Assembly: GCF_015665295.1 (NCBI RefSeq)
Contig: NZ_JADFAJ010000002.1
Location: 1 to 41,515, forward strand
DNA: 41,515 nt
Direction of reading: 5' to 3'
DNA from: Maricaulis sp.
GTDB lineage: Bacteria; Pseudomonadota; Alphaproteobacteria; Caulobacterales; Maricaulaceae
Below, piece after piece: positions 1 to 9,893 of the stretch. Under the pieces are notes generated by a model. The model saw nothing but the letters and a program-made list of their open reading frames with translations. It was not told the origin of the DNA and made no database searches. The translations under genes and the position numbers were made by a program. The first letter of the stretch is position 1; every line of letters begins with the position of its first letter.

Positions 1-229
1 ATTATGTGCTGATCGCCGCCATGCTGGCGGTCGTCGTCATTGGCGGCGCGCAATGGGCTCGCGGGCCCGGCGTTTACGGAGACGGCGCTGGCCGGGTGCC
101 AACCGGGGCCACACCCATTCCCGAAAGGCCGGAGGTTTCGGATTCCTCCATTGCGGTCCTGCCCTTTGCCGACCTGTCACCGGAGGGCAACCAGGCCTAT
201 TTTGGCGACGGCATTGCCGAGGAAATCCT
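1..229 (+). repeat. Near-identical direct repeat, copy 1
   Basis: This stretch matches 1857-2085 at an offset of 1856 with only three mismatches (positions 128, 179 and 189). The first 127 bases are identical. It encodes the third membrane segment, linker and first part of the TolB-like domain. The match probably continues upstream of the window and stops abruptly at base 230. Confidence 0.9.
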
Positions 230-1586
230 CAACGTGCTGACCCGCGTGGACGGGCTGCATGTCGCCTCCCGCACCTCGGCCTTCCAGTTCCGCGGCGACG
301 AGCTGGGCATACCGGCCATCGCACAGGCGCTGAATGTCCGGCATGTTGTCGAGGGCTCGGTGCGCAAGGCTGGGAGCACGCTGCGCATTACCGCCCAGCT
401 GATCGATTCCGAGACCGACCAGCACCTCTGGTCGGAGACGTTCGACCGGCCACTGACAGCGGAAAACATCTTTGCCATTCAGGACGAGATTGCATCGGAG
501 ATTGTCCGCGCGCTCAGCGAAACGCTGGGTATGGAACCGCCCGATGTCTCCGTGAGTAGCGACACGGAAAATCTGGATGCTTATGAGCTCTTTCTGCGCG
601 GCCAGGATATTTTCCACCGGCGGAACAATGACAACATTCCGGACGGCATCGCCTATTTCGAACAGGCCGTCGACGCCGACCCGGACTTTGCCCGTGGCTG
701 GGCCGGGCTAGCCGCTATCTATGGCATCGCCGAAAGCTGGATTGGTGGCGGCGAGGCCGATCAGGATTTCGACGCGCTGGCGCTTGAAGCCGCCGACCGG
801 GCTACGGCTCTGGATGCCAGTCTCAGCCTACCGTACTCTGTCCGCGGCAATGTCGCGCGTCGACGCTTCGAGTGGTCCGAAGCACTCAACCAGACCAATG
901 CTGCCGTCGAGCGCGACCCGACGAGTGCCAATGCGTGGTATTTCCGGGGCTCGATCTGGCTGGATGCCGGTTTCTTTGATCAGGCGGCCACCGATTTTGA
1001 AGCATGCCTCGAACGCGATCCGAACTATGAGATCTGCCGCCGTTTCCTCGCTTTTGCCGAACTCTATCGCGGGCATACGGACCTGGCACTTGAGCTTTTT
1101 GAAGCCGGCATCCTGGCGGGACAGGAATCCTATCCCCATATCATGGCCCCGGTCTATTTCGCCACCGGAGACGCCGCGACAGCCCTATATTTCCTCGCTT
1201 ACTTGGCTGAGGACCGTAGAACCGACGCCTATCTCGAAGCCCGTTACCGGTATTATAGCGACCATAGCCTGACGAACGCAGAATTCGAGCGAATGCTCAG
1301 GGCTATTTATCTGCGCGAAAACGGCTCTCTCGAGGGCTTCGAGCCACCTTCCTTCGCATACAACGAAGACTTTCCGATTGATGACTTCGATATTCGCTGG
1401 AACCCCCTCCAGATTGACCGGTTCCGGCCGGAAGTCCGTGACGCCTTTATCGCGGCGCGCCACAGGGCCATGGAGGCCGCCAGCCTTCCCGATTTCTGGC
1501 GTGAACGCGGCTTCCCGCCACAATGCCACCCCGCTGGAGAAAATTATTTCGAATGCGGCTGGTATGACGGGGAGGCGGACGGATGA
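1..1586 (+). CDS. TolB-like/TPR membrane protein, 5' end outside window
   Basis: The window opens inside this gene. Bases 1-2 are the end of an Asp codon and the frame is open from base 3, with no start needed at the GTG at base 6. Alignment with the next gene implies about 92 missing residues holding two membrane segments. What remains starts with a third hydrophobic segment (about 18 residues), then a Gly/Pro linker, a TolB-N/FlgO-like domain (IAVLPFADLSPEG through the AQLID and LWSETFDR motifs), TPR-like helices and a tail with GFPPQC and a second Cys. The family (COG5616-type) is often annotated as adenylate-cyclase-like or TPR protein, but no cyclase domain is present. With three N-terminal membrane segments the TolB and TPR parts would be periplasmic (inferred). 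The stop overlaps the next start as ATGA, so the two are probably translationally coupled. The precise role is unknown. Confidence 0.75.
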   Translation, partial: YVLIAAMLAVVVIGGAQWARGPGVYGDGAGRVPTGATPIPERPEVSDSSIAVLPFADLSPEGNQAYFGDGIAEEILNVLTRVDGLHVASRTSAFQFRGDELGIPAIAQALNVRHVVEGSVRKAGSTLRITAQLIDSETDQHLWSETFDRPLTAENIFAIQDEIASEIVRALSETLGMEPPDVSVSSDTENLDAYELFLRGQDIFHRRNNDNIPDGIAYFEQAVDADPDFARGWAGLAAIYGIAESWIGGGEADQDFDALALEAADRATALDASLSLPYSVRGNVARRRFEWSEALNQTNAAVERDPTSANAWYFRGSIWLDAGFFDQAATDFEACLERDPNYEICRRFLAFAELYRGHTDLALELFEAGILAGQESYPHIMAPVYFATGDAATALYFLAYLAEDRRTDAYLEARYRYYSDHSLTNAEFERMLRAIYLRENGSLEGFEPPSFAYNEDFPIDDFDIRWNPLQIDRFRPEVRDAFIAARHRAMEAASLPDFWRERGFPPQCHPAGENYFECGWYDGEADG

Positions 1587-3418
1587 ACCATTTCCTCGCC
1601 GAGCTGCGCCGCCGCAACGTCTTCCGTGTGGCCGCCGCCTATCTGGTCGCGGGCTGGCTGGTGATGCAGGTCGTGGCGACCATCGGAGCCGCCGCCGGAC
1701 TGCCCGACTGGGCCGACAGCCTGGTGCTTGTCCTCCTGATCGGGGCCTTCCCGATTGTCCTGTTTATCGCCTGGGCGTTCGAACTGACGCCCGAGGGCAC
1801 GAAGAAGACCGAGGCCGCAGACGCGCCCACAGGGTTCAAACCGCTCGGCCCCAGCGATTATGTGCTGATCGCCGCCATGCTGGCGGTCGTCGTCATTGGC
1901 GGCGCGCAATGGGCTCGCGGGCCCGGCGTTTACGGAGACGGCGCTGGCCGGGTGCCAACCGGGGCCACACCCATTCCCGAAAGTCCGGAGGTTTCGGATT
2001 CCTCCATTGCGGTCCTGCCCTTTGCCGACCTGTCGCCGGAGGGCGACCAGGCCTATTTTGGCGACGGCATTGCCGAGGAAATCCTGAACGTCCTTGTACG
2101 GATTGATGGGCTGGACGTCGCCTCGCGCACGTCTGCCTTCCAGTATCGGGGCGAAGCCTATTCCATCCCGGAAATCGCAGAAGGTCTGAATGTCCGGCAC
2201 GTTCTGGAAGGCTCGGTGCGTACCGATAGCGCCACGGTACGCATTACCGCCCAGCTGATCGATGCGCGTGATGACCGGCACTTGTGGTCAGACACGTTTG
2301 ACCGGCCGCTGACAGCCGGTGCCATTTTCGCCGTGCAGGACGAGATTGCCACGGCCATCGTCGAGGCGCTGCGCGGCTTCCTGGATGAGTCCGTTCCCGA
2401 ACCGGTCGTCGCCGTCGCGGCCGTGACGGATGATGTCGATGCCTACACCCTCTATCTTCAGGCGCGGTCCCTGTATCTCGGCCGCCGCGATCTTGGCCAG
2501 GTGATGGACCTGCTGGATCAGGCAATCGCCCGGGACCCCGGTTTCGCGCAGGCCTATGCCATCCGCGCCGGCGCAACGCTCCTGCTGGTAGAGTACAGCG
2601 AAACCAGCCGTCCCCTGGAGGATTTGCATGCCGAAGCGGCCCGGTTTGCGCGCCATGCCCTGGACATCGATCCAGAGAATGCGACAGCCATGGCCGTGCT
2701 TGCCAATTCACAGGCATTCCAATCGCGCCTGCTGGGCCGGTGGGCGGATTATTCAGACATCATTGCCCAATTCACACGCGCGCTGGACTTCGATCCCCAT
2801 GACGGATCGGCGCGCAACTGGCGCGGGCTGGTCTATCTGGACATGGGCTATCTCGACCTCGCGCTGAATGATTTTCAGGTGTGCATGGCGCAGGAGCCCC
2901 GTTATGCGCCCCGTGTCGAAAATACCTACGATACACTCTATGCCATGGGGCGCGCCGAGGACGGATTCGCGACGTACAGAAATGCCCTGAACGCGGGCCT
3001 CGTTACCGGTGAATGGCTGAATTTCGGGATGCTGGCCCATTTCCGAGAAGACATTGCCTTTACCCAGGCAGTCAATCTGGCGTCAGTCTTGCCGCGCTAT
3101 CCGCGCGCCGGCGAGATCTACGAAGCCTTTCTGAACCTGGACGAAAATCATTCCGAGCTAGGGGCCGATGCATGGCGGTATGCCGAAAGCATTGGCAATA
3201 CCGGGGAATACATGGTCGCGATCCTGCTGCTTCCGCTCGACCCGAGCAATTCAAGTCAAAACCCCTTCATCTACTGGCAGTCGGAACTGCACGCCTGGCG
3301 TCAGCTGGACCGGTTCAAGGACCGGATGCGCCAGACCGGCATACTCGACCACTGGCGTGAGCACGGCTTTCCGCCGCAATGCCGCGCCGGCGAAGACGAC
3401 GATTTTGATTGCGACTAG
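1583..3418 (+). CDS. TolB-like/TPR membrane protein, paralog 2
   Basis: This is a complete 611-residue member of the array. The N-terminus (ELRRRNVFRVAAAYLVAGW) gives a hydrophobic helix at about residues 15-35, a second at 45-65 ending in the family motif AWAFELTPEG, and a third at 93-110. A TolB-N/FlgO-like domain follows at about 140-265 (SIAVLPFADLSPEG, LNVRHVLEGSVR, ITAQLID, HLWSDTFD). Degenerate TPR helices run from about 285 to 560. The tail is WREHGFPPQC plus a final Cys pair region (DDDFDCD). The start overlaps the stop of the preceding paralog by four bases. The topology suggests an inner-membrane anchor with periplasmic TPRs. No enzymatic motif was seen, so a scaffold or sensor role is only a guess. 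Confidence 0.78.
   Translation: MNHFLAELRRRNVFRVAAAYLVAGWLVMQVVATIGAAAGLPDWADSLVLVLLIGAFPIVLFIAWAFELTPEGTKKTEAADAPTGFKPLGPSDYVLIAAMLAVVVIGGAQWARGPGVYGDGAGRVPTGATPIPESPEVSDSSIAVLPFADLSPEGDQAYFGDGIAEEILNVLVRIDGLDVASRTSAFQYRGEAYSIPEIAEGLNVRHVLEGSVRTDSATVRITAQLIDARDDRHLWSDTFDRPLTAGAIFAVQDEIATAIVEALRGFLDESVPEPVVAVAAVTDDVDAYTLYLQARSLYLGRRDLGQVMDLLDQAIARDPGFAQAYAIRAGATLLLVEYSETSRPLEDLHAEAARFARHALDIDPENATAMAVLANSQAFQSRLLGRWADYSDIIAQFTRALDFDPHDGSARNWRGLVYLDMGYLDLALNDFQVCMAQEPRYAPRVENTYDTLYAMGRAEDGFATYRNALNAGLVTGEWLNFGMLAHFREDIAFTQAVNLASVLPRYPRAGEIYEAFLNLDENHSELGADAWRYAESIGNTGEYMVAILLLPLDPSNSSQNPFIYWQSELHAWRQLDRFKDRMRQTGILDHWREHGFPPQCRAGEDDDFDCD
1857..2085 (+). repeat. Near-identical direct repeat, copy 2
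   Basis: This is the second copy of the tract at 1-229, inside the second TPR paralog, with three substitutions over 229 bases. Sequence on the 3' side diverges to ordinary paralog-level similarity. That pattern fits gene conversion or a recent partial duplication better than uniform descent. Confidence 0.9.
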
Positions 3419-3427
3419 GATGACCGG

Positions 3428-5281
3428 ATGAACCGCCTGCTCTCCGAACTGCGCCGCCGCAACGTGTTCCGGGTCGCGACCGCCTATCTGGTGGTCGGCT
3501 GGGTGCTGATCCAGGTCGTCTCGCTGATCGCCGAACCGTTGGGCCTTCCGGATTGGACCGATACATTCTTCATCGTGCTGCTGGGGGTGGGCTTTCCCAT
3601 TGCCCTACTGCTGGCTTGGGCGTTCGAGATGACGCCCGAGGGCATGAAGCTGACGGTTGCCGTGCCCGCAGACGACGGCATTGCCACACAAACCGCCCGC
3701 AAGCTGGATTATGCTATCGTCGCCGGGCTGGTCGTGCTTGTCGGCGTCATCGTCTGGCAGCAATTGGCGAGCCCGCAAGCGGCAACCGCTCCGGAGCTCG
3801 CGGCGCGGGCGGAGGCCGGCGAAGGGGCATCCGTCGCGGTGCTTCCCTTTGCAGACATGAGCCCCGATAGCGATCAGGCCTATTTCGCCGATGGGATTTC
3901 GGAAGAGATCCTCAATGTCCTCGTTCGTATTCCTGACCTCCAGGTCGCGGGCCGCACCTCCAGTTTTGCCTATCGGGGTCAGGACCAGGATTTGCGTGAG
4001 ATCGGCAGTGCGCTGAATGTCAGCCATGTTCTGGAGGGTAGCGTGCGCCGCAGCGGGACGCGGCTTCGGATCACCGCCCAGTTGATCCGTTCCGAGGACG
4101 GTTTTCATCTCTGGTCGGAAACCTATGACCGGGAACTGACCGATATTTTCGATATCCAGGACGAGATCGCGGGGGCGGTTGCCGATGAACTCGCCACTTC
4201 CCTGGGACTCGAGACGGGGGCGATCAGCGTTGCGCGCACCTCCGATCTGGGCGCCTACGAATCCTTCCTTCATGCCCGACAACTCTTTCGCGAGCGCGGT
4301 CAGGCCAATCTCGAACTCGCCGCTGCCATGCTGACCGAAACGCTGGCGCGCGACCCCGAATACGGGCCCGGATGGACACAGTTATCTGGTGTTTATTGGG
4401 TGATGCACTATTACCGTCAGGGCAACAGCGCGCCTGCGCCTGAGCTTGCGGTGAGGTGGAATGCCCTGGCCGTAGAGACCGCGCGCCGGGCGATTGTGAT
4501 CAATCCGGCCGACGCCCAGGCCCATGCCTTTCTTGGAGCGGCGCTTACCGAGAACTGGAACTGGATCGAGGGGCTGGACATGCTGGACCGGGCCGTAGCC
4601 CTTGCTCCCAATGACCCCGACGTCCTCGACACGGCCGCTCAGATACTCGGAAAAGTGGGGTATGTGACGGAAGCGTTGGCGCTTTCCGAACATGCGGTGG
4701 CGCTGGATCCGCAGGGGGCGATTTTCCGCAACACGTTGGGAAACCTGCTCGCCTATCAAGGCCGGTTCGAAGAATCCAACGCTCAATTCCGTGCCTCAAT
4801 CGACATCGACCCGAGCTTGCGCTTCCCGTATGCCAACCTGATGTGGGGCCTTGCGAGGGCCGGTGACATGGCCGGAACCCAGTCCGCGCTCATCGCCATG
4901 CGCGACCGCGGCCACCTGGTTCGTGGAGATGAGGATTTGATCGAGCCCTTCGTCGCTGCGCAAAGCCTGACAGACATGCAACCGCTTGCCGTGGAAAGCC
5001 GGGGCTTTGTCCGTTCCCTGTATGCCTTGCTGGCGTCCGACATCGAGTATTATTTCTCCCGAGCCCCGATCCGTGACATCGACGAGCTGCCCAGCAATTG
5101 GGCTAACTACAACCCGTTCTGGCAATCTTTCAGAGGCGAAATTTTCGCCGATCCGCGATGGAAGTTCTGGGTCCGCCGTGGGGACCTGGTGGATCTCTGG
5201 AGGGCGCGCGGCTTCCCGTCCCAATGCCGACCCGTGGGCGAGGAGGACTTTGAGTGCCTTCCGCCGAGCGAAATGGATTAA
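3428..5281 (+). CDS. TolB-like/TPR membrane protein, paralog 3
   Basis: This 617-residue protein has the same layout as its two upstream neighbours. It has an ELRRRNVFRVATAYLVVGW N-terminus, membrane helices near residues 15-35, 45-65 and 94-111, and the AWAFEMTPEG motif. A TolB-like domain sits at about 132-265 (VAVLPFADMSPDS, HVLEGSVRRSG, HLWSETYD), then TPR-like helices with clear A-x-x-x-DP repeats (for example LDRAVALAPNDPDVLDTAAQ). The tail is WRARGFPSQC followed by EEDFEC. It starts nine bases after the previous stop, and TAGGA serves as a weak ribosome site. It is clearly more diverged from paralogs 1 and 2 than those are from each other. The function is unknown beyond the family resemblance. 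Confidence 0.77.
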   Translation: MNRLLSELRRRNVFRVATAYLVVGWVLIQVVSLIAEPLGLPDWTDTFFIVLLGVGFPIALLLAWAFEMTPEGMKLTVAVPADDGIATQTARKLDYAIVAGLVVLVGVIVWQQLASPQAATAPELAARAEAGEGASVAVLPFADMSPDSDQAYFADGISEEILNVLVRIPDLQVAGRTSSFAYRGQDQDLREIGSALNVSHVLEGSVRRSGTRLRITAQLIRSEDGFHLWSETYDRELTDIFDIQDEIAGAVADELATSLGLETGAISVARTSDLGAYESFLHARQLFRERGQANLELAAAMLTETLARDPEYGPGWTQLSGVYWVMHYYRQGNSAPAPELAVRWNALAVETARRAIVINPADAQAHAFLGAALTENWNWIEGLDMLDRAVALAPNDPDVLDTAAQILGKVGYVTEALALSEHAVALDPQGAIFRNTLGNLLAYQGRFEESNAQFRASIDIDPSLRFPYANLMWGLARAGDMAGTQSALIAMRDRGHLVRGDEDLIEPFVAAQSLTDMQPLAVESRGFVRSLYALLASDIEYYFSRAPIRDIDELPSNWANYNPFWQSFRGEIFADPRWKFWVRRGDLVDLWRARGFPSQCRPVGEEDFECLPPSEMD

Positions 5282-5393: not shown

Positions 5394-5436
5394 TTGTAAT
5401 TCTTCCCGCCCCTGCTAGCGTCGTTGTCAGGAGAGG
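5394..5436 (+). promoter_or_regulatory. Possible promoter and ribosome site before the five-gene array
   Basis: The 164-bp gap after the TPR genes holds the only non-coding DNA upstream of the five-gene array. TTGTAA at 5394-5399 lies 16 bases before TAGCGT at 5416-5421, a weak -35/-10 pair. AGGAGAGG at 5429-5436 lies nine bases before the ATG at 5446 and is a convincing Shine-Dalgarno sequence. No convincing terminator for the TPR genes was seen in this gap. Confidence 0.35.
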
Positions 5437-5445
5437 AAAAAGAGG

Positions 5446-6210
5446 ATGATTCTTCAAAGGATTAGCAAGGCCGTCCGCGAACAGAACTGGCTCGCTGTGG
5501 CGATCGAATTCGTCATCGTCATCGCCGGCGTGGTGATCGGTTTCCAGATCACGGCGTGGAATGCCGCCCGCCAGGAGCGCATCGACGAACGCGACACATT
5601 GATCCGGCTCTATGATGACATTGCGGCCAGCCGGACTGCGCAAATCCGGGATATTGCCTTTCTCGAACAGCAGATATCGGATCAAGCCGTCATAATTGGG
5701 TCGCTATCGCGCTGCTCTGTCGCGCCGGAAGACGACACGATGTTCCAGCGCGGAATCTCGACGCTCGGATGGATCAACCCGCCGCGGCTCAATCGCCGCA
5801 CCATCGATGAAATGCTTGCTTCGGGGCGTACCATTGTCATCCGCAACCGGGCTATTCTCGACCAACTGGCCAACATCGTTTCTATCGTCGAGTGGCGGGC
5901 GGCGGCCTTCGATGACACGATGAACAGCATGCTGCAAAATCGCCAGCGCATTGAACCGCAATTGCGGTTTGGCCTCGATCAGGTCATCGACAATCCCTTC
6001 GTTCCCGAACACCGGGTCCGGATCAGCTACGACATAACGGCGATCTGCCAGGACAGTCTGCTGACCAATTCGATCTCATCGGTCAGCTATCTGACCCATG
6101 AGCGCATGGACGCTTACCGGCCGCTCATCGGGATCTACGGAGCGCTTCTTGTCCAGATCGCCGATGAACTTGAATTGCGTTGGGATATCGATCCGGAGGC
6201 CATTGAATGA
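5446..6210 (+). CDS. Small single-pass membrane protein, array member 1 (DUF6090-like)
   Basis: This 254-residue protein is the first of five tandem paralogs. Residues 1-39 form the shared block: a short amphipathic lead with REQNW (11-15), a membrane helix (about 18-37) with E21-F22 and a G28-x3-G32 pair, and a closing AWN (37-39). A charged helical region follows (about 40-85). The central motif at about 120-140 (DEMLASGRTIVIRNRAILDQL) is the least canonical of the five. The C-terminal half has no match I recognise. The anchor plus the S-G-x-x-x-x-I-R motif recall Bacteroidetes DUF6090 proteins; this link is from memory of that family, not a search. The strong ribosome site lies nine bases upstream. 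No catalytic motif was seen. Confidence 0.6.
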   Translation: MILQRISKAVREQNWLAVAIEFVIVIAGVVIGFQITAWNAARQERIDERDTLIRLYDDIAASRTAQIRDIAFLEQQISDQAVIIGSLSRCSVAPEDDTMFQRGISTLGWINPPRLNRRTIDEMLASGRTIVIRNRAILDQLANIVSIVEWRAAAFDDTMNSMLQNRQRIEPQLRFGLDQVIDNPFVPEHRVRISYDITAICQDSLLTNSISSVSYLTHERMDAYRPLIGIYGALLVQIADELELRWDIDPEAIE

Positions 6211-6911
6211 TCCTCGCCCGTCTCTCCTCTGCGATCAAGGAACAGAACTGGTTCGCCGTCGTCCTTGAATTCATCATCGTCATCGCGGGTGTCGTGATCG
6301 GTTTCCAGATCACGGCATGGAATAGCGAGCGGGCCGAGGACGCTCGCGCATCAATGCTGATAGAGCGCATTGAAGAAGAATTTCGAGTTCTTGAGACGAG
6401 TTTGTCCGACTACGAGCGTTTACTGGCCAGTTATGAAGCCGCCAGTGAAAATGTGATCGCGGCGATCCGGAATGATACCGTGTCCACAACGGATCCGGCG
6501 CTGATGAGGGACTGGCTGGGCCTGACCCGCCATGTCGGTCGACCGCCTGCACGTTCCGCCATCTTTGCCGAGATGATTGCGTCCGGCGAGCTGTCGCTTC
6601 TTCCTGAGGCATTGAGGACGGCTTTAGCGGAGTTTGATCAGGAAATTCAGCGCAACGCCTATCTGTGGCCAGAAGCGGCCAGTCATCTGACAGGTTCGAC
6701 TGCCCTGTTCGATGCCGTAGAATACAACTCGTTGTCGGCGGATCACGACGTAACCTCCTTCGATCCCAATTTGCTGCCTCTGGCAGAATCCGATCTGGAA
6801 GCTCTGGTGATTTATCAAGGCGCGCTCAGAATAACCTATGAGCGAATACTGGGAAGCGCTCGCGAGGTTCTTGCCGCGATTGAACCAGACCAAGGGGGAG
6901 CGATGCCATGA
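6207..6911 (+). CDS. Small single-pass membrane protein, array member 2 (DUF6090-like)
   Basis: This 234-residue protein starts within the stop of member 1 (ATGA overlap). It has the shared N-terminal block: KEQNW at 11-15, EF at 21-22, GVVIG at 28-32 and FQITAWN at 33-39. An acidic, probably coiled helix covers about 40-80 (RIEEEFRVLETSLSDYE). The central motif at 121-146 reads AEMIASGELSLLPEALRTAL followed by AEFDQ. The topology is most simply a short cytoplasmic N-terminus, one helix and a soluble domain of about 195 residues outside, but this is inferred. No enzyme signature was seen. Confidence 0.6.
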   Translation: MILARLSSAIKEQNWFAVVLEFIIVIAGVVIGFQITAWNSERAEDARASMLIERIEEEFRVLETSLSDYERLLASYEAASENVIAAIRNDTVSTTDPALMRDWLGLTRHVGRPPARSAIFAEMIASGELSLLPEALRTALAEFDQEIQRNAYLWPEAASHLTGSTALFDAVEYNSLSADHDVTSFDPNLLPLAESDLEALVIYQGALRITYERILGSAREVLAAIEPDQGGAMP

Positions 6912-7645
6912 TCCTCGCCCGCATCAGCCGCGCTATCCGCGAACAGAACTGGCTCGCCGTGGCGATCGAGTTCGTGATTGTCGTGGCCGGCGTCATGCTG
7001 GCCTTCCAGTTCACCGCCTGGAATGAGCAAAGCCAAAATGCGGTCCGGGTCGAACAGGCGCTCGCGCGGCTGCAACTGGAGACCGAGGAGAATATCGGCG
7101 CCCTGCGACAGCGCATCGACGCCAATGCCCGGCGTGGAGCCGACCAGCAGGTCATGATTGCCGTGGCGATGCGCGGGCATCTCGAGGACGGCGAAGCCGA
7201 GGCCTTCGAGCGCGGCGTGGCGCAACTGATGTATTTTTCGCGCCATCCGGTCCGGCGGAGCATCTATCAGGCGCTCGAACAGTCCGGTGACCTGGCGCTC
7301 ATCGCCGACCGGGACCTGGTGATCGCGCTGAACCGCTACCAGGCCAGTCTGGCCTGGATCGACAATCAGCACGCCAGCTTCCGACGCGGGCTCACCACCT
7401 TCACCGACACGCTGGCGGAATTTTCCTTCCACGAACCGACGGATGATCCGACCATCACCCGCGTCCGTGTCGACCTGGAACGCCTTGCGGCCGAGCCACG
7501 GCGGACCAGCGCGCTGGTCCAGATGGCCCGAATGCACGCGATTTTCGGCTACTATGTCATCCAGCTGGAGGCCGAAACGGTTGAACTCTGCCACCGCCTG
7601 GCCGATGCCACCGGCCGCCCCTGCGCTGAGGAGAGAACGCCATGA
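6908..7645 (+). CDS. Small single-pass membrane protein, array member 3 (DUF6090-like)
   Basis: This 245-residue paralog overlaps members 2 and 4 by ATGA at both ends. The anchor block is present, with REQNW at 11-15 and EFVIVVAGV at 21-29. The second glycine of the helix pair is alanine here (GVMLA) and the block ends FQFTAWN. A helical region rich in Glu, Gln and Arg follows (residues 43-75). The central motif at 121-145 is QALEQSGDLALIADRDLVIA. The C-terminus ends with a Cys-containing segment (VELCHRLADATGRPC). The function is unknown. Confidence 0.6.
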   Translation: MILARISRAIREQNWLAVAIEFVIVVAGVMLAFQFTAWNEQSQNAVRVEQALARLQLETEENIGALRQRIDANARRGADQQVMIAVAMRGHLEDGEAEAFERGVAQLMYFSRHPVRRSIYQALEQSGDLALIADRDLVIALNRYQASLAWIDNQHASFRRGLTTFTDTLAEFSFHEPTDDPTITRVRVDLERLAAEPRRTSALVQMARMHAIFGYYVIQLEAETVELCHRLADATGRPCAEERTP

Positions 7646-8385
7646 TCCTCGCTCGCATCACCAGGGCGCTGCGCGAACAGAACTGGTTCGCGGTCAGCCT
7701 CGAATTCGTGATCGTGATCCTCGGCGTCGTGATCGGTTTCCAGATCACGGCCTGGAATGAGGCGCGCACCGCGGTCGCACTCGAGCAGATCTATCTGGAA
7801 AGGCTGCATGACGACATGGCGCGCTCGCGCGCCGTGCTCGAGGCCGAAATCGCCAATTCGAGGGAATGGCACGAAGATGGGGACGCGATACGCATAGCCC
7901 TTCTGACCGGTGATCGTGAAACCGCGGGCACGGGATGGCAGCTCAATGCCGCGACCCGGCTCGTCGTGGGTTCGCCGCAAATGGGCACGCTGAACGAACT
8001 GATCAGCGGCGGCCAGATGAATCTGATCCGCGATCCCGATCTGCGCCGTCGCATCGCGCAGACAGACGCCCAATTGCGCAGCTATGCCGATTACATCGCG
8101 CTGATGAGCAATACCGCACCGCCCTTCATGTACACCATCCAGTCTCGCCTTGAGACCGGGACAGGCGGTGCCGAGGACGTGCATTTCGATTTCGACGCGC
8201 TTGCCGCTGACGAGGAATTCCTCAATGCGTTCGGCCACATGCTCCGTCTGAGTTCGGTCAATCGCTACTGGCTCGAGGGCATGCTGACCGAGGTGAATGA
8301 GCTGGAAGCCATCCTCACCGACACGCTGGATATCGAGGCCGCCATCGCACCGGCCGACGCGCCGGAAGAAATGGTCGCCGAATGA
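7642..8385 (+). CDS. Small single-pass membrane protein, array member 4 (DUF6090-like)
   Basis: This 247-residue paralog starts inside the stop of member 3. It has the full anchor block (REQNW, EFVIVILGVVIGF, QITAWNEAR) and then a helical stretch (EQIYLERLHDDMARSRAVLE). The central motif at 117-140 is close to the DUF6090 pattern: LNELISGGQMNLIRDPDLRR. The C-terminus is acidic (IAPADAPEEMVAE). The function is unknown; the position and coupling suggest it is made in fixed proportion with its neighbours. Confidence 0.6.
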   Translation: MILARITRALREQNWFAVSLEFVIVILGVVIGFQITAWNEARTAVALEQIYLERLHDDMARSRAVLEAEIANSREWHEDGDAIRIALLTGDRETAGTGWQLNAATRLVVGSPQMGTLNELISGGQMNLIRDPDLRRRIAQTDAQLRSYADYIALMSNTAPPFMYTIQSRLETGTGGAEDVHFDFDALAADEEFLNAFGHMLRLSSVNRYWLEGMLTEVNELEAILTDTLDIEAAIAPADAPEEMVAE

Positions 8386-9095
8386 TCCTGACCTCGATCA
8401 CCAAGGCCCTGAAGACCCAGAACTGGCTCGCCGTCGCAGTCGAATTCATCATCGTGCTGGCCGGCGTGGTGATCGGCTTCCAGATTTCCGCCTGGAACGA
8501 GACCCGGATCGAGCATCAGCGCGAAGCCCTGATCCTGGACCGCCTGCACGCGGACTTCGTCGAGATCGAGGCCCGTACGGCGACCATGGTCGCCCAGCTC
8601 GAGACACGGATCGAGGCGGGCACGTCCTTCGAGACTCTCCTGCTGCGTGACCAGACCTTCGTCAGCGATGCTGACTTCTTCGAAGCCCTGCAGAACGCCA
8701 TCGGCACGCCCGTGCCCAATGGTCGCTCGGCGACCTATGCCGAACTGGTGGCCTCCGGCGAGATGCGGCTGATCCGCTCGGAAGCCCTGCGCGAGGCGCT
8801 GGTGGAGTTTGACGAGCAGGTGCGTCGCCAGGAGCTGGCCTATGCCTCCCTCGCCCGGCTGATCACCGACAATGCTGGCCTCCTGCTGGAAGTCCAGGGC
8901 TATGCGGTGGAAGACCCCGAGGCGCTGCGCCCCGATCTCTATCGAGGTCTCGCCGAGATACGCCAGTCACCCGAGATCTTCACCGCCGCCCGCCTGACCA
9001 CCCGCGCCAACCAGGTCAACCGGATATGGCATGAAGGCACGCTGGAACGGGCACAGGCCGTGTTGGCGGCGATGGAAACCGGCGACACCCCCTAG
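8382..9095 (+). CDS. Small single-pass membrane protein, array member 5 (DUF6090-like)
   Basis: This 237-residue protein is the last member. Its anchor block is slightly diverged at the start (MILTSITKALKTQNW) but keeps QNW, EF, GVVIG and AWNE. Helical residues 43-80 (REALILDRLHADFVEIEAR) follow. The central motif at 120-145 is the clearest of the five: AELVASGEMRLIRSEALREA, then LVEFDEQVRR. The TAG stop at 9093-9095 overlaps the minus-strand stop of the SRAP gene, so there is no room for a terminator between the convergent genes. The function is unknown. Confidence 0.6.
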   Translation: MILTSITKALKTQNWLAVAVEFIIVLAGVVIGFQISAWNETRIEHQREALILDRLHADFVEIEARTATMVAQLETRIEAGTSFETLLLRDQTFVSDADFFEALQNAIGTPVPNGRSATYAELVASGEMRLIRSEALREALVEFDEQVRRQELAYASLARLITDNAGLLLEVQGYAVEDPEALRPDLYRGLAEIRQSPEIFTAARLTTRANQVNRIWHEGTLERAQAVLAAMETGDTP

Positions 9096-9781
9096 AGCAG
9101 GCCCACCCGCTGCGGGCCGTCGCCCGGCTCGGTCAACCATTCCTCGTCGACGCGGACATTGCCGACGGCCTTGTTGGCCTCGCGGATATCCATCGCCTCG
9201 GAGGGCAGGCCTTTCAGCAAAGGCTCGATGTCGTGATTGTCGGCATCGGTCCAGGCTTCGAAATCCTCCGGACCGAGAATGACCGGCATGCGGGTGTGGA
9301 TGGCGGCCATGGCCTCATTGGGCGCGGTGGTGAGGATGGTGAAACTGTCGATTGTCTCGCCCTCGACCTCGGCCCGGTCCCACAGGCCGGCAAAACCGAA
9401 CCAGTCCTGATCCTTCACGGTGATGAAATGCGGCTGTTTGGCGCCTTTCGGACCGGTCCACTCGTAAAAGCCCACCGCCGGGATGATGCAGCGCCGCTTC
9501 TGGAAGGGCATGCGGAAGCTGGGCGCCGAGGCGGCCGTCTCCGACTTGGCGTTGAAGGTGGAGAATTTCATCTCCTTGAGCGGTTTCTGCCAGAAATAGG
9601 GCACCAGCCCCCAGCGCGCCATCACCGCTTCCGTACGGCCGTCCTCGCGACGGATGATCGGCGCTCTCTGGGTCGGGGCGATATTCCAGCGCGGCTCGAG
9701 ATTGAGCGCGCCCTGCTGGAGCTTGAATGTCTCCTGCAGAATCCACCACTGAAGCTTTCCAAGGGCATAGCGACCACACAT
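9092..9781 (-). CDS. SOS response-associated peptidase (SRAP/YedK/HMCES family)
   Basis: The SRAP family covalently traps abasic sites in single-stranded DNA through the N-terminal Cys2, giving a stable thiazolidine crosslink. I chose the ATG at 9781 because it gives the required MCGRY start; a longer frame to 9877 would bury the cysteine. The 229-residue protein has the active-site set in family spacing: Cys2, Asn77 (FNAKSE), Glu107 (VGFYEW) and His162 (AIHTRMPVIL). These lie close to Cys2/Asn75/Glu105/His160 of E. coli YedK. No clear ribosome site was seen. The gene diverges from imuA, and the LexA box 77 bp upstream suggests shared SOS control. The name 'peptidase' refers to removal of its own initiator Met. 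Confidence 0.93.
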   Translation of the reverse strand: MCGRYALGKLQWWILQETFKLQQGALNLEPRWNIAPTQRAPIIRREDGRTEAVMARWGLVPYFWQKPLKEMKFSTFNAKSETAASAPSFRMPFQKRRCIIPAVGFYEWTGPKGAKQPHFITVKDQDWFGFAGLWDRAEVEGETIDSFTILTTAPNEAMAAIHTRMPVILGPEDFEAWTDADNHDIEPLLKGLPSEAMDIREANKAVGNVRVDEEWLTEPGDGPQRVGLL

Positions 9782-9835
9782 GCCGGGCAGACTAGCCCGA
9801 TTGGCGGGGCGTGCGAAAGCGCCCGGATTCGTCGC

Positions 9836-9866
9836 TTGACTCTGCCGCGCCAGATGAGAACATAAG
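9836..9866 (+). promoter_or_regulatory. Probable imuA promoter
   Basis: TTGACT at 9836-9841 is a near-consensus -35. The weak -10 candidates ACATAA (9860-9865, spacer 18) or CATAAG (9861-9866, spacer 19) lie inside the LexA box, so bound LexA would cover the -10. The start is about 22-30 bases upstream of the imuA ATG. Confidence 0.45.
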
Positions 9867-9872
9867 AAGAAC
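9858..9872. promoter_or_regulatory. LexA box (SOS operator)
   Basis: GAAC-ATAAGAA-GAAC at 9858-9872 is an exact match to the alphaproteobacterial LexA operator, GTTC-N7-GTTC read on the other strand. It lies 22 bp before imuA and 77 bp before the divergent SRAP start, and overlaps the candidate imuA -10. It would put imuA, imuB and probably dnaE2 under SOS control, and possibly the SRAP gene too. No other exact box was noticed in the gaps I read. Confidence 0.88.
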
Positions 9873-9893
9873 ATCAAGCGAGAGCCAAATCTG

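Follow-up and report, generated by a model that had tools for sequence, protein, structure and literature searches.

A 41,515-nt stretch of the genome of Maricaulis sp. (RefSeq assembly GCF_015665295.1, contig NZ_JADFAJ010000002.1, positions 1 to 41,515; here called the window) carries five tandem genes (5446-9095, forward strand) that encode related membrane proteins, and comparison with related genomes makes it very probable that this locus is an operon-like array of single-span membrane proteins whose content is shuffled by recombination. The repeating unit is a conserved 117-nt segment coding for a membrane anchor (codons 1-39; the N-module) followed by a divergent body, each next unit beginning inside the stop codon of the previous one. 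Since every body is flanked by two N-modules, homologous recombination between these segments could delete, insert or replace a body with frame and coupling kept, and the arrays of related species represent different samples of a common pool of body types, some of them horizontally exchanged. The purpose of such a collection is stated with less assurance. The members may be a repertoire of periplasmic binders directed against diverse threats to the periplasm or inner membrane, most likely competitor toxins; a shuffled array serving as a periplasmic protection repertoire is the best explanation of the whole, at a little under an even chance, and the protective function taken by itself is held somewhat more tentatively.

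All five open reading frames (ORFs) are complete, start with ATG and encode proteins of 234-254 aa, and a purine-rich stretch precedes the starts. Member 1 (5446..6210, 254 aa) carries Cys90 and Cys201; it is followed by member 2 (6207..6911, 234 aa), member 3 (6908..7645, 245 aa, with Ala32, Cys228 and Cys239), member 4 (7642..8385, 247 aa) and member 5 (8382..9095, 237 aa), all on the forward strand. Their N-modules, also on this strand, occupy 5446..5562, 6207..6323, 6908..7024, 7642..7758 and 8382..8498, the last four opening at the ATGA junctions 6207-6210, 6908-6911, 7642-7645 and 8382-8385, so that four out of four junctions are 4-nt overlaps. A first-pass annotation, made from the letters of the sequence, had described five coupled genes with ATGA at every junction, and coordinates and junctions confirm this. 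Invariant positions in the five-way alignment are M1, I2, L3, A9, Q13, N14, W15, A17, V18, E21, F22, I24, V25, G28, V29, F33, Q34, A37, W38, N39, R54 and G127; they include every conserved residue listed in that annotation, which was also correct about Ala32 of member 3. Overall, members 2-5 are 26-30% identical to member 1. The mean nucleotide identity of the first 39 codons is 0.74, and the bodies (residue 45 on) have a mean identity of 20%, in agreement with the earlier statement that they mostly differ, to which a second conserved block can be added: the motif EL..SG...LI....LR..L, at residues 121-140 in member 5, is found again throughout the aligned family set of 124 members, with G126 in 115. 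Elsewhere in the same genome there are four further members, coupled likewise, on contig C1, a single member on contig C5, and a short remnant.

All five proteins belong to one family, which disposes of the alternative named in the first-pass annotation that they come from separate described families. Searches against Pfam, NCBIfam, PADLOC and PHROGs returned sub-threshold matches or nothing, and a profile search of PDB sequences gave a best E of 0.035, which is not meaningful. For the Pfam model DUF6090 (PF19578; gathering cut-off 23.5 bits), member 4 scores 13.8 and member 5 scores 16.8 bits, members 1-3 are unlisted, and no protein of their own genome exceeds the cut-off. The model matches 34 of the 124 aligned members at E<=0.01 (best 1.6e-15), and its cut-off is exceeded by three of ten sampled relatives (L033:4762, L033:999 and L025:3064). 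Because these intermediate relatives match, the window proteins are a diverged offshoot of DUF6090, an uncharacterised group to which intermediate members join them. An acidic-residue membrane helix followed by a body is common to both, whereas the window five score below the DUF6090 cut-off. The literature searched, which leaves most subscription journals outside, gave no description of these arrays and no paper naming DUF6090.

At E<=0.001, 18 of 19 genomes of the genus match, with 0-12 matches per genome, counts that include stubs and a divergent paralog. Full-anchor members occur in 16; two genomes have only the divergent single-copy paralog, which is without the first 18 anchor positions, and one has no match. 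The neighbours of this paralog were considered as a route to function, and at two loci gave no clue. The bacterial family yields matches in 74 of 137 genomes, spanning 12 of 19 genera; at E<=1e-6 the figures are 83 of 200 genomes for the order and 7 of 299 for a sample of the phylum, own genome counted. The highest count is 25 matches in one relative genome, and the longest uninterrupted runs, also in relatives, comprise 12 full genes. Coupled arrays were obtained from seven or more genera belonging to this bacterial family, and among 72 groups in loci chosen by family matches, a choice that biases tallies of array size, the number of full members is two or more in 37, one in 28 and zero in seven; this argues against the view, which the first-pass annotation had named as fatal to its proposal, that the array is a lineage accident and single copies are the rule. 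Coupling is near-uniform, with 145 of 166 scored junctions in 54 loci at -4, 13 at -1 and eight at other distances. One locus, L085, has two 157-nt spacers with near-identical palindromic sequence and the motif TGGATCCCGGATC between members where other arrays have ATGA.

Evidence for exchange of whole units comes from pairs of relatives. Genomes G002 (body types 11 -- 03 07) and G003 (01 08 11 03 07) differ by whole coupled genes and have the same terminal stub, and G001 (-- 16 04 02 03) differs likewise from G005 (04 09 06 16 12 04 02 -- 03). The breakpoints point to the N-module. Gene 11 of G002 and G003 (57M/58M) has an identity of 79% at nt 1-39, 100% in the 78 nt that follow and 95% in its body, while L078-1294 and L076-7987 have bodies 99% and N-modules 78% identical (Fisher p 9e-16), with a synonymous divergence (dS, by NG86; values near 1 are close to saturation) of 0.03 in the body and 0.97 in the N-module. 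Among 43 pairs of orthologs from different genomes, all with a body identity of 75% or more, N-modules are less alike than bodies in 20, eight of them at Fisher p<0.05. G042 and G045 have flanks 78-87% identical and shared cassettes that are 91-94.5% identical and reordered, and the shared blocks extend from one N-module into the following one. Six bodies shared by these two genomes have dS of 0.03-0.22 against 1.05 for gyrB; their last gene, which is also of a type common to both, has diverged further and lies below the 72% identity cut of the dS comparison. Between the window genome and G046, two cassettes show dS of 0.40 and 0.56, and gyrB dS is 0.99-1.2 between the window genome and three other genomes of G046's genus. 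On such sequence evidence, cassettes are traded horizontally between species, with crossovers in the anchor segment, and this modular exchange apparently reaches between genera.

The composition of arrays can be followed through body types, for which letters denote clustering at 38% identity and numbers a separate clustering at 50%; letter types are to be read with care, as the 'I' bodies of L056 and L060 are only distantly alike. Clustering of 102 members from 11 genomes (seven Maricaulis and four with the Hyphobacterium genus label) at 50% gave 20 shared types, with 23 singletons besides. Member 1 is of type K (10), member 3 of type E (02), member 4 of type A (15) and member 5 of type B (03), while member 2 has no close body ortholog in the compared loci (best 34% over 72%). 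G046, a genome with the Hyphobacterium genus label, has a member to which the body of member 4 is 86% identical. Relatives hold different subsets of the shared types, mostly in an order that is not kept: the window genome reads 07 -- 01 05 | 10 -- 02 15 03 and G017 reads 02 12 13 06 05 04 01 08 11 03. Since G017 has both halves on one contig (L061), contig C1 of the window genome is suggested to lead into the window. The last position is more regular, with type 01 in four of four Hyphobacterium-type arrays and type 03, that of member 5, in G000, G001, G005 and G017.

Codon usage sets the N-modules apart as well. A matched comparison used 122 members of 20 genomes in pairs with bodies less than 30% identical, dropping members that were shorter than 200 aa or had Gln13 out of register. 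Given the same amino acid, the same codon was used at a frequency of 0.67 in N-modules of the same genome and 0.63 between different genomes, against 0.41-0.42 in bodies and 0.45 at random; the window values are 0.62 for N-modules and 0.36 for bodies. GGT is used at 61% and 66% of glycine codons 28 and 32, and at 14% in the membrane-like parts of 95 further coding-like ORFs, so membrane segments in general do not share the bias. The codon p-values that go with these GGT counts are too small owing to relatedness, and the matched comparison is the safer guide. The likeness of N-module codons could reflect either repeated exchange or a constraint on the DNA itself.

The anchor is highly conserved at the protein level. 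Residue 21, which lies inside the span, is acidic in all 124 aligned members (Glu in 103, Asp in 21), and Gly28 is present in 123. The W-x5-acidic-F motif of the anchor may resemble one in MotB. The G28-x3-G32 pair pointed out in the first-pass annotation is sustained by the wider alignment, position 32 being Gly in 102 and Ala in 22 of the 124, and by itself is no evidence of helix packing. Residues 1-14 carry a higher net charge than residues 39-60 in 124 of 124 members, and the topology is therefore predicted to be N-in/C-out. Cysteines number zero in 48 members, one in three, two in 72 and three in one, so that 120 of 124 have none or two; by body group the modal number is zero in 25 of 59, one in a single group and two in 33, at various position pairs, where a Poisson model expects 21.5 of the 59 groups to have one. 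Paired cysteines whose positions vary with the body point to disulfides, and hence to a periplasmic body; the prediction is a helical bundle outside the cytoplasm that carries a disulfide in roughly half of the body types. AlphaFold2 was run with family alignments (124 rows for member 5, 101 of those rows for member 1) and gave models with predicted local distance difference test (pLDDT) values of 91.1 for member 5 and 92.1 for member 1. Both have the same order of parts, a helix at 2-11, a long one (15 to 88/89) including the membrane span, and then the remaining helices of the bundle, the last of which is by sequence too weakly hydrophobic for a span. Two body types are thus confidently predicted to share one layout of interfacial helix, single transmembrane helix and helical bundle. 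All members would be made at once and seated in the inner membrane by the same anchor, with its acidic residue and GxxxG/A pair.

This architecture would also suit a repertoire of sensors or receptors, whose bodies perceive different periplasmic cues and signal through the common anchor to one partner, with residue 21 as the contact within the membrane. We regard this as unlikely, while ranking it ahead of the other alternatives. Near-invariance of residues 21 and 28 and the continuity of body helix and membrane helix in both models agree with it, and Foldseek ranks the TorS sensor domain and the Vc1313 ligand domain among its matches, weakly and without significance. A candidate partner may be found upstream, where two tetratricopeptide repeat (TPR) proteins with an N-terminal membrane segment (1583..5281, forward strand) end 164 nt before the array, and the arrays of L038, L061, L077, L078 and L090 are each preceded, at a distance of 106-165 nt, by the end of a gene whose C-terminus is similar, in Maricaulis and Hyphobacterium-type genomes. 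On the other side, only about 14 residues lie inside the cell and there is no cytoplasmic signalling domain; neither a second membrane helix by sequence nor a significant Foldseek match links the family to the four-helix-bundle (4HB) sensor domain. The nearest upstream gene, moreover, varies between arrays. A 144-aa multi-span protein encoded upstream was rejected as a shared partner, since it is restricted to L017, L024/L057, L058, L061 and L047/L066 (each slashed pair being one place under two identifiers) and is less common among arrays than the TPR genes.

Inner-membrane proteins with variable periplasmic bodies might instead block the entry of DNA from different phages, and the membrane anchor, the horizontal exchange and turnover of cassettes, and the decayed members in several genomes would all be in keeping with phage exclusion. 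Phage-exclusion genes are often carried by phages, however, and the five members had no match in PADLOC or PHROG, and no copy was found in phages (member 5 as query) or viral contigs (profile), so this explanation is rather improbable.

Neutral birth and death, in which tandem duplication at a recombination-prone repeat leaves redundant members and a drifting copy number, appears more improbable still. It would account for the spread of match counts in the genus, for the genomes with no match or only the divergent paralog, and for the broken members and stubs present in several genomes, from which it follows that turnover includes decay. Stubs of the N-module that end at about codon 18-23 were seen in different lineages (L025 at 4535 and 5451, L057 at 11064, L058 rc 11440, L094 at 6776/7779/8224, L095 rc 884); those in L025, L094 and L095 have a repeat-like stretch behind them, in several cases followed by a new N-module, and were examined as possible recombination sites and left unexplained. 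Opposed to neutrality are a median body dN/dS (ratio of nonsynonymous to synonymous divergence) of 0.16 (range 0.05-0.37; 48 of 49 pairs usable), body types that persist across genera, the near-uniform coupling, and the low identity of the window bodies, which are not recent duplicates. By these sequence ratios the bodies are functional and slow in point change, and purifying selection implies that their diversity stems from old divergence plus shuffling, not from fast point change. Of the two suggestions in the first-pass annotation, a diversifying set with one membrane partner is the better fit, and a diversified set with a common anchor is supported: a conserved anchor over divergent bodies was found, but no partner was identified and the bodies are under purifying selection.

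The other suggestion of the first-pass annotation, a hetero-oligomer of five subunits in fixed proportion, is compatible with translational coupling and the common GxxxG/A anchor and is contradicted, as a fixed five-part complex, by match counts of 0-25 per genome, by the existence of single-member loci, and by close relatives that differ in composition and order. Members that are coupled, selected, freely gained and lost, and traded between species do not make up a fixed machine, and this proposal is very unlikely, although loose mixed oligomers are possible. Antigenic variation from silent cassettes is hardly credible: a conserved 5' segment with variable bodies resembles systems where unexpressed donors feed one expressed copy, but full members have start codons of their own, coupling to the preceding gene is almost without exception, and the arrays contain no apparent lone expression copy.

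For the shuffled array with a protective function, the nearest published pattern is the homogeneous polyimmunity locus, described by Zhang et al. (2012, PMC3482391) as a close-set row of tandem, distantly related paralogs in one orientation, uninterrupted by toxin genes, in which number and type of paralogs differ even between strains; several of these published loci have adjacent recombinases. The features in common are distant paralogs on one strand, tiny gaps, content that varies between close relatives, limitation to lineages and the lack of a toxin seen inside; what differs here is the single membrane-anchored fold, the ATGA coupling and the recombination in a shared anchor segment. By analogy, the logic of the array would be that of a polyimmunity locus. 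The polymorphic toxin cassettes treated in the same source (PMC3482391) resemble the arrays in joining a constant N-terminal part to C-terminal parts exchanged by recombination, whereas the units here are full genes in an operon-like row with no toxin domain seen. A further parallel is the lpl cluster of the Gram-positive Staphylococcus aureus, portrayed (PMC4470592) as tandem membrane-anchored paralogs of strain-variable copy number, with a conserved intragenic segment thought to allow shuffling and similarities of more than 80% within and about 60% between groups. Tandem anchored paralogs, conserved segment and varying copy number are shared; lpl proteins, by contrast, have a lipid anchor and a conserved core with variable ends, and the window proteins have a conserved 5' anchor, bodies about 20% identical and no lipobox cysteine in the signal, the two pairs in members 1 and 3 being their only cysteines. 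The arrays are shuffled tandem paralog arrays, a known phenomenon, in an uncharacterised family and with an unusually clear exchange mechanism.

Several observations weigh against this account in its two parts. With regard to exchange, N-modules are significantly more alike than bodies in 9 of the 43 ortholog pairs, so their conservation is partly a matter of selection on the protein. Order is sometimes kept: four successive types are common to G003 and G017, 19 of 21 order pairs match between G042 and G047, and agreement is three of three pairs in each of G001/G005, G002/G003 and G045/G046. Low dS does not tell the whole story, since some cassettes exceed gyrB, namely window members 5 and 3 compared with G017 (0.63 and 0.80; gyrB 0.37) and the last gene of G042 and G047 (1.39; gyrB 0.27). 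Replacement by distant alleles would explain these values, and dS both far below and far above background would fit allele exchange with near and distant donors, the low values alone being strong evidence. With regard to protection, none of the five members matches an Imm family or a PHROG model, and five window members and three relatives matched no PADLOC family at E<=0.1. Foldseek returned nothing at E<=1e-3 from the PDB (two models) or from viral models (one model), the best E for the family models being 0.12 and 0.073. No match was obtained in plasmids and phages with member 5 as sole query, or in viral contigs with a profile, and a mobile vehicle for the array was dropped as a candidate on these grounds. 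The arrays depart from polyimmunity loci in that no Imm or toxin model was matched by the five members or by eight sampled linked genes, and no toxin, effector or ligand linked to an array was found among those eight, toxins elsewhere in the genomes not having been searched. These genes, which lie beside, inside or coupled to arrays, encode DUF3500, TPR, APH-type kinase, alpha/beta hydrolase and unassigned proteins, and four of the eight match nothing.

A fuller version of the shuffled-array account is offered more tentatively again. The array would be an integrase-free cassette system (as proposed; array flanks were not searched for recombinases), in which repertoires of anchored periplasmic recognition proteins are built and traded by homologous recombination through the anchor-coding segment, and one anchor serves as membrane anchor, docking part for a partner common to all members, and recombination arm; ATGA coupling would make a body and the next anchor exactly exchangeable, and the product would be an innate inner-membrane shield of many specificities.

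The surroundings of the array vary. A possible promoter and ribosome site (TTGTAA..TGCTAGCGTC..GGAGAGG; 5394..5445, forward strand), read from the sequence, precedes member 1, and leaders resembling it (TAGCGTC..GGGGAG) precede arrays in L061, L077, L080 and L090; a sigma-70 consensus scan of the window made no call at 5394..5445. Further upstream, positions 6-5281 code for three TPR proteins in tandem, of which the first is truncated where the contig begins, and the assembly probably breaks in the TPR repeat because contig C1 ends in the same TPR start. L017, L056, L057, L059-L063 and L069 have a left flank in common, in which Pfam identifies HPPD and glyoxalase genes. On the right, an SRAP gene (9092..9877, reverse strand) borders the array and leads a flank common to the window, L059, L061, L062 and L063; other right flanks are paired between L056 and L060 and between L057 and L058. 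A gene of DNA polymerase III alpha type lies further right and, with its neighbours, is presumably an imuAB-dnaE2 mutagenesis cassette.

Unrelated genes also occur within arrays. A DUF3500 gene (L017:11492-12613, assigned by Pfam in the L017 copy) stands between array halves in L017, L061, L076 and L078, in two genera, and its stop overlaps the next N-module as ATGA in L017, L076 and L078. Hyphobacterium-type and Oceanicaulis arrays have, within or next to them, the apparently multi-span membrane protein of L027:4627-5238 and its relatives in L037, L078, L079 and L080, which are mutually 80-96% identical and have no Pfam match. In L082, L037 and L088 an ATGA overlap couples N-modules to other short proteins whose N-terminus has a hydrophobic segment (two were scanned, with no Pfam match); these may be foreign genes captured as cassettes. 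Near the lone member on contig C5, a TIR-like gene (L018:4854-5225; PADLOC ThsB, E 2.4e-6) adjoins a caspase-like gene in the same direction (L018:5244-5996; PADLOC caspase, E 1.9e-18), and the two are possibly a TIR-caspase defence pair.

Arrays of up to 12 uninterrupted genes, with 25 matches in one genome, constitute a natural record of selection for diversity. The use of an anchor-coding segment as recombination arm would offer a route to domain swaps within an operon, without a dedicated recombinase and with frame and coupling kept, and the pairs G002/G003, G001/G005 and G042/G045 make this mechanism testable. If the repertoire reading is true, DUF6090-type proteins would gain a testable role in periplasmic protection or recognition.

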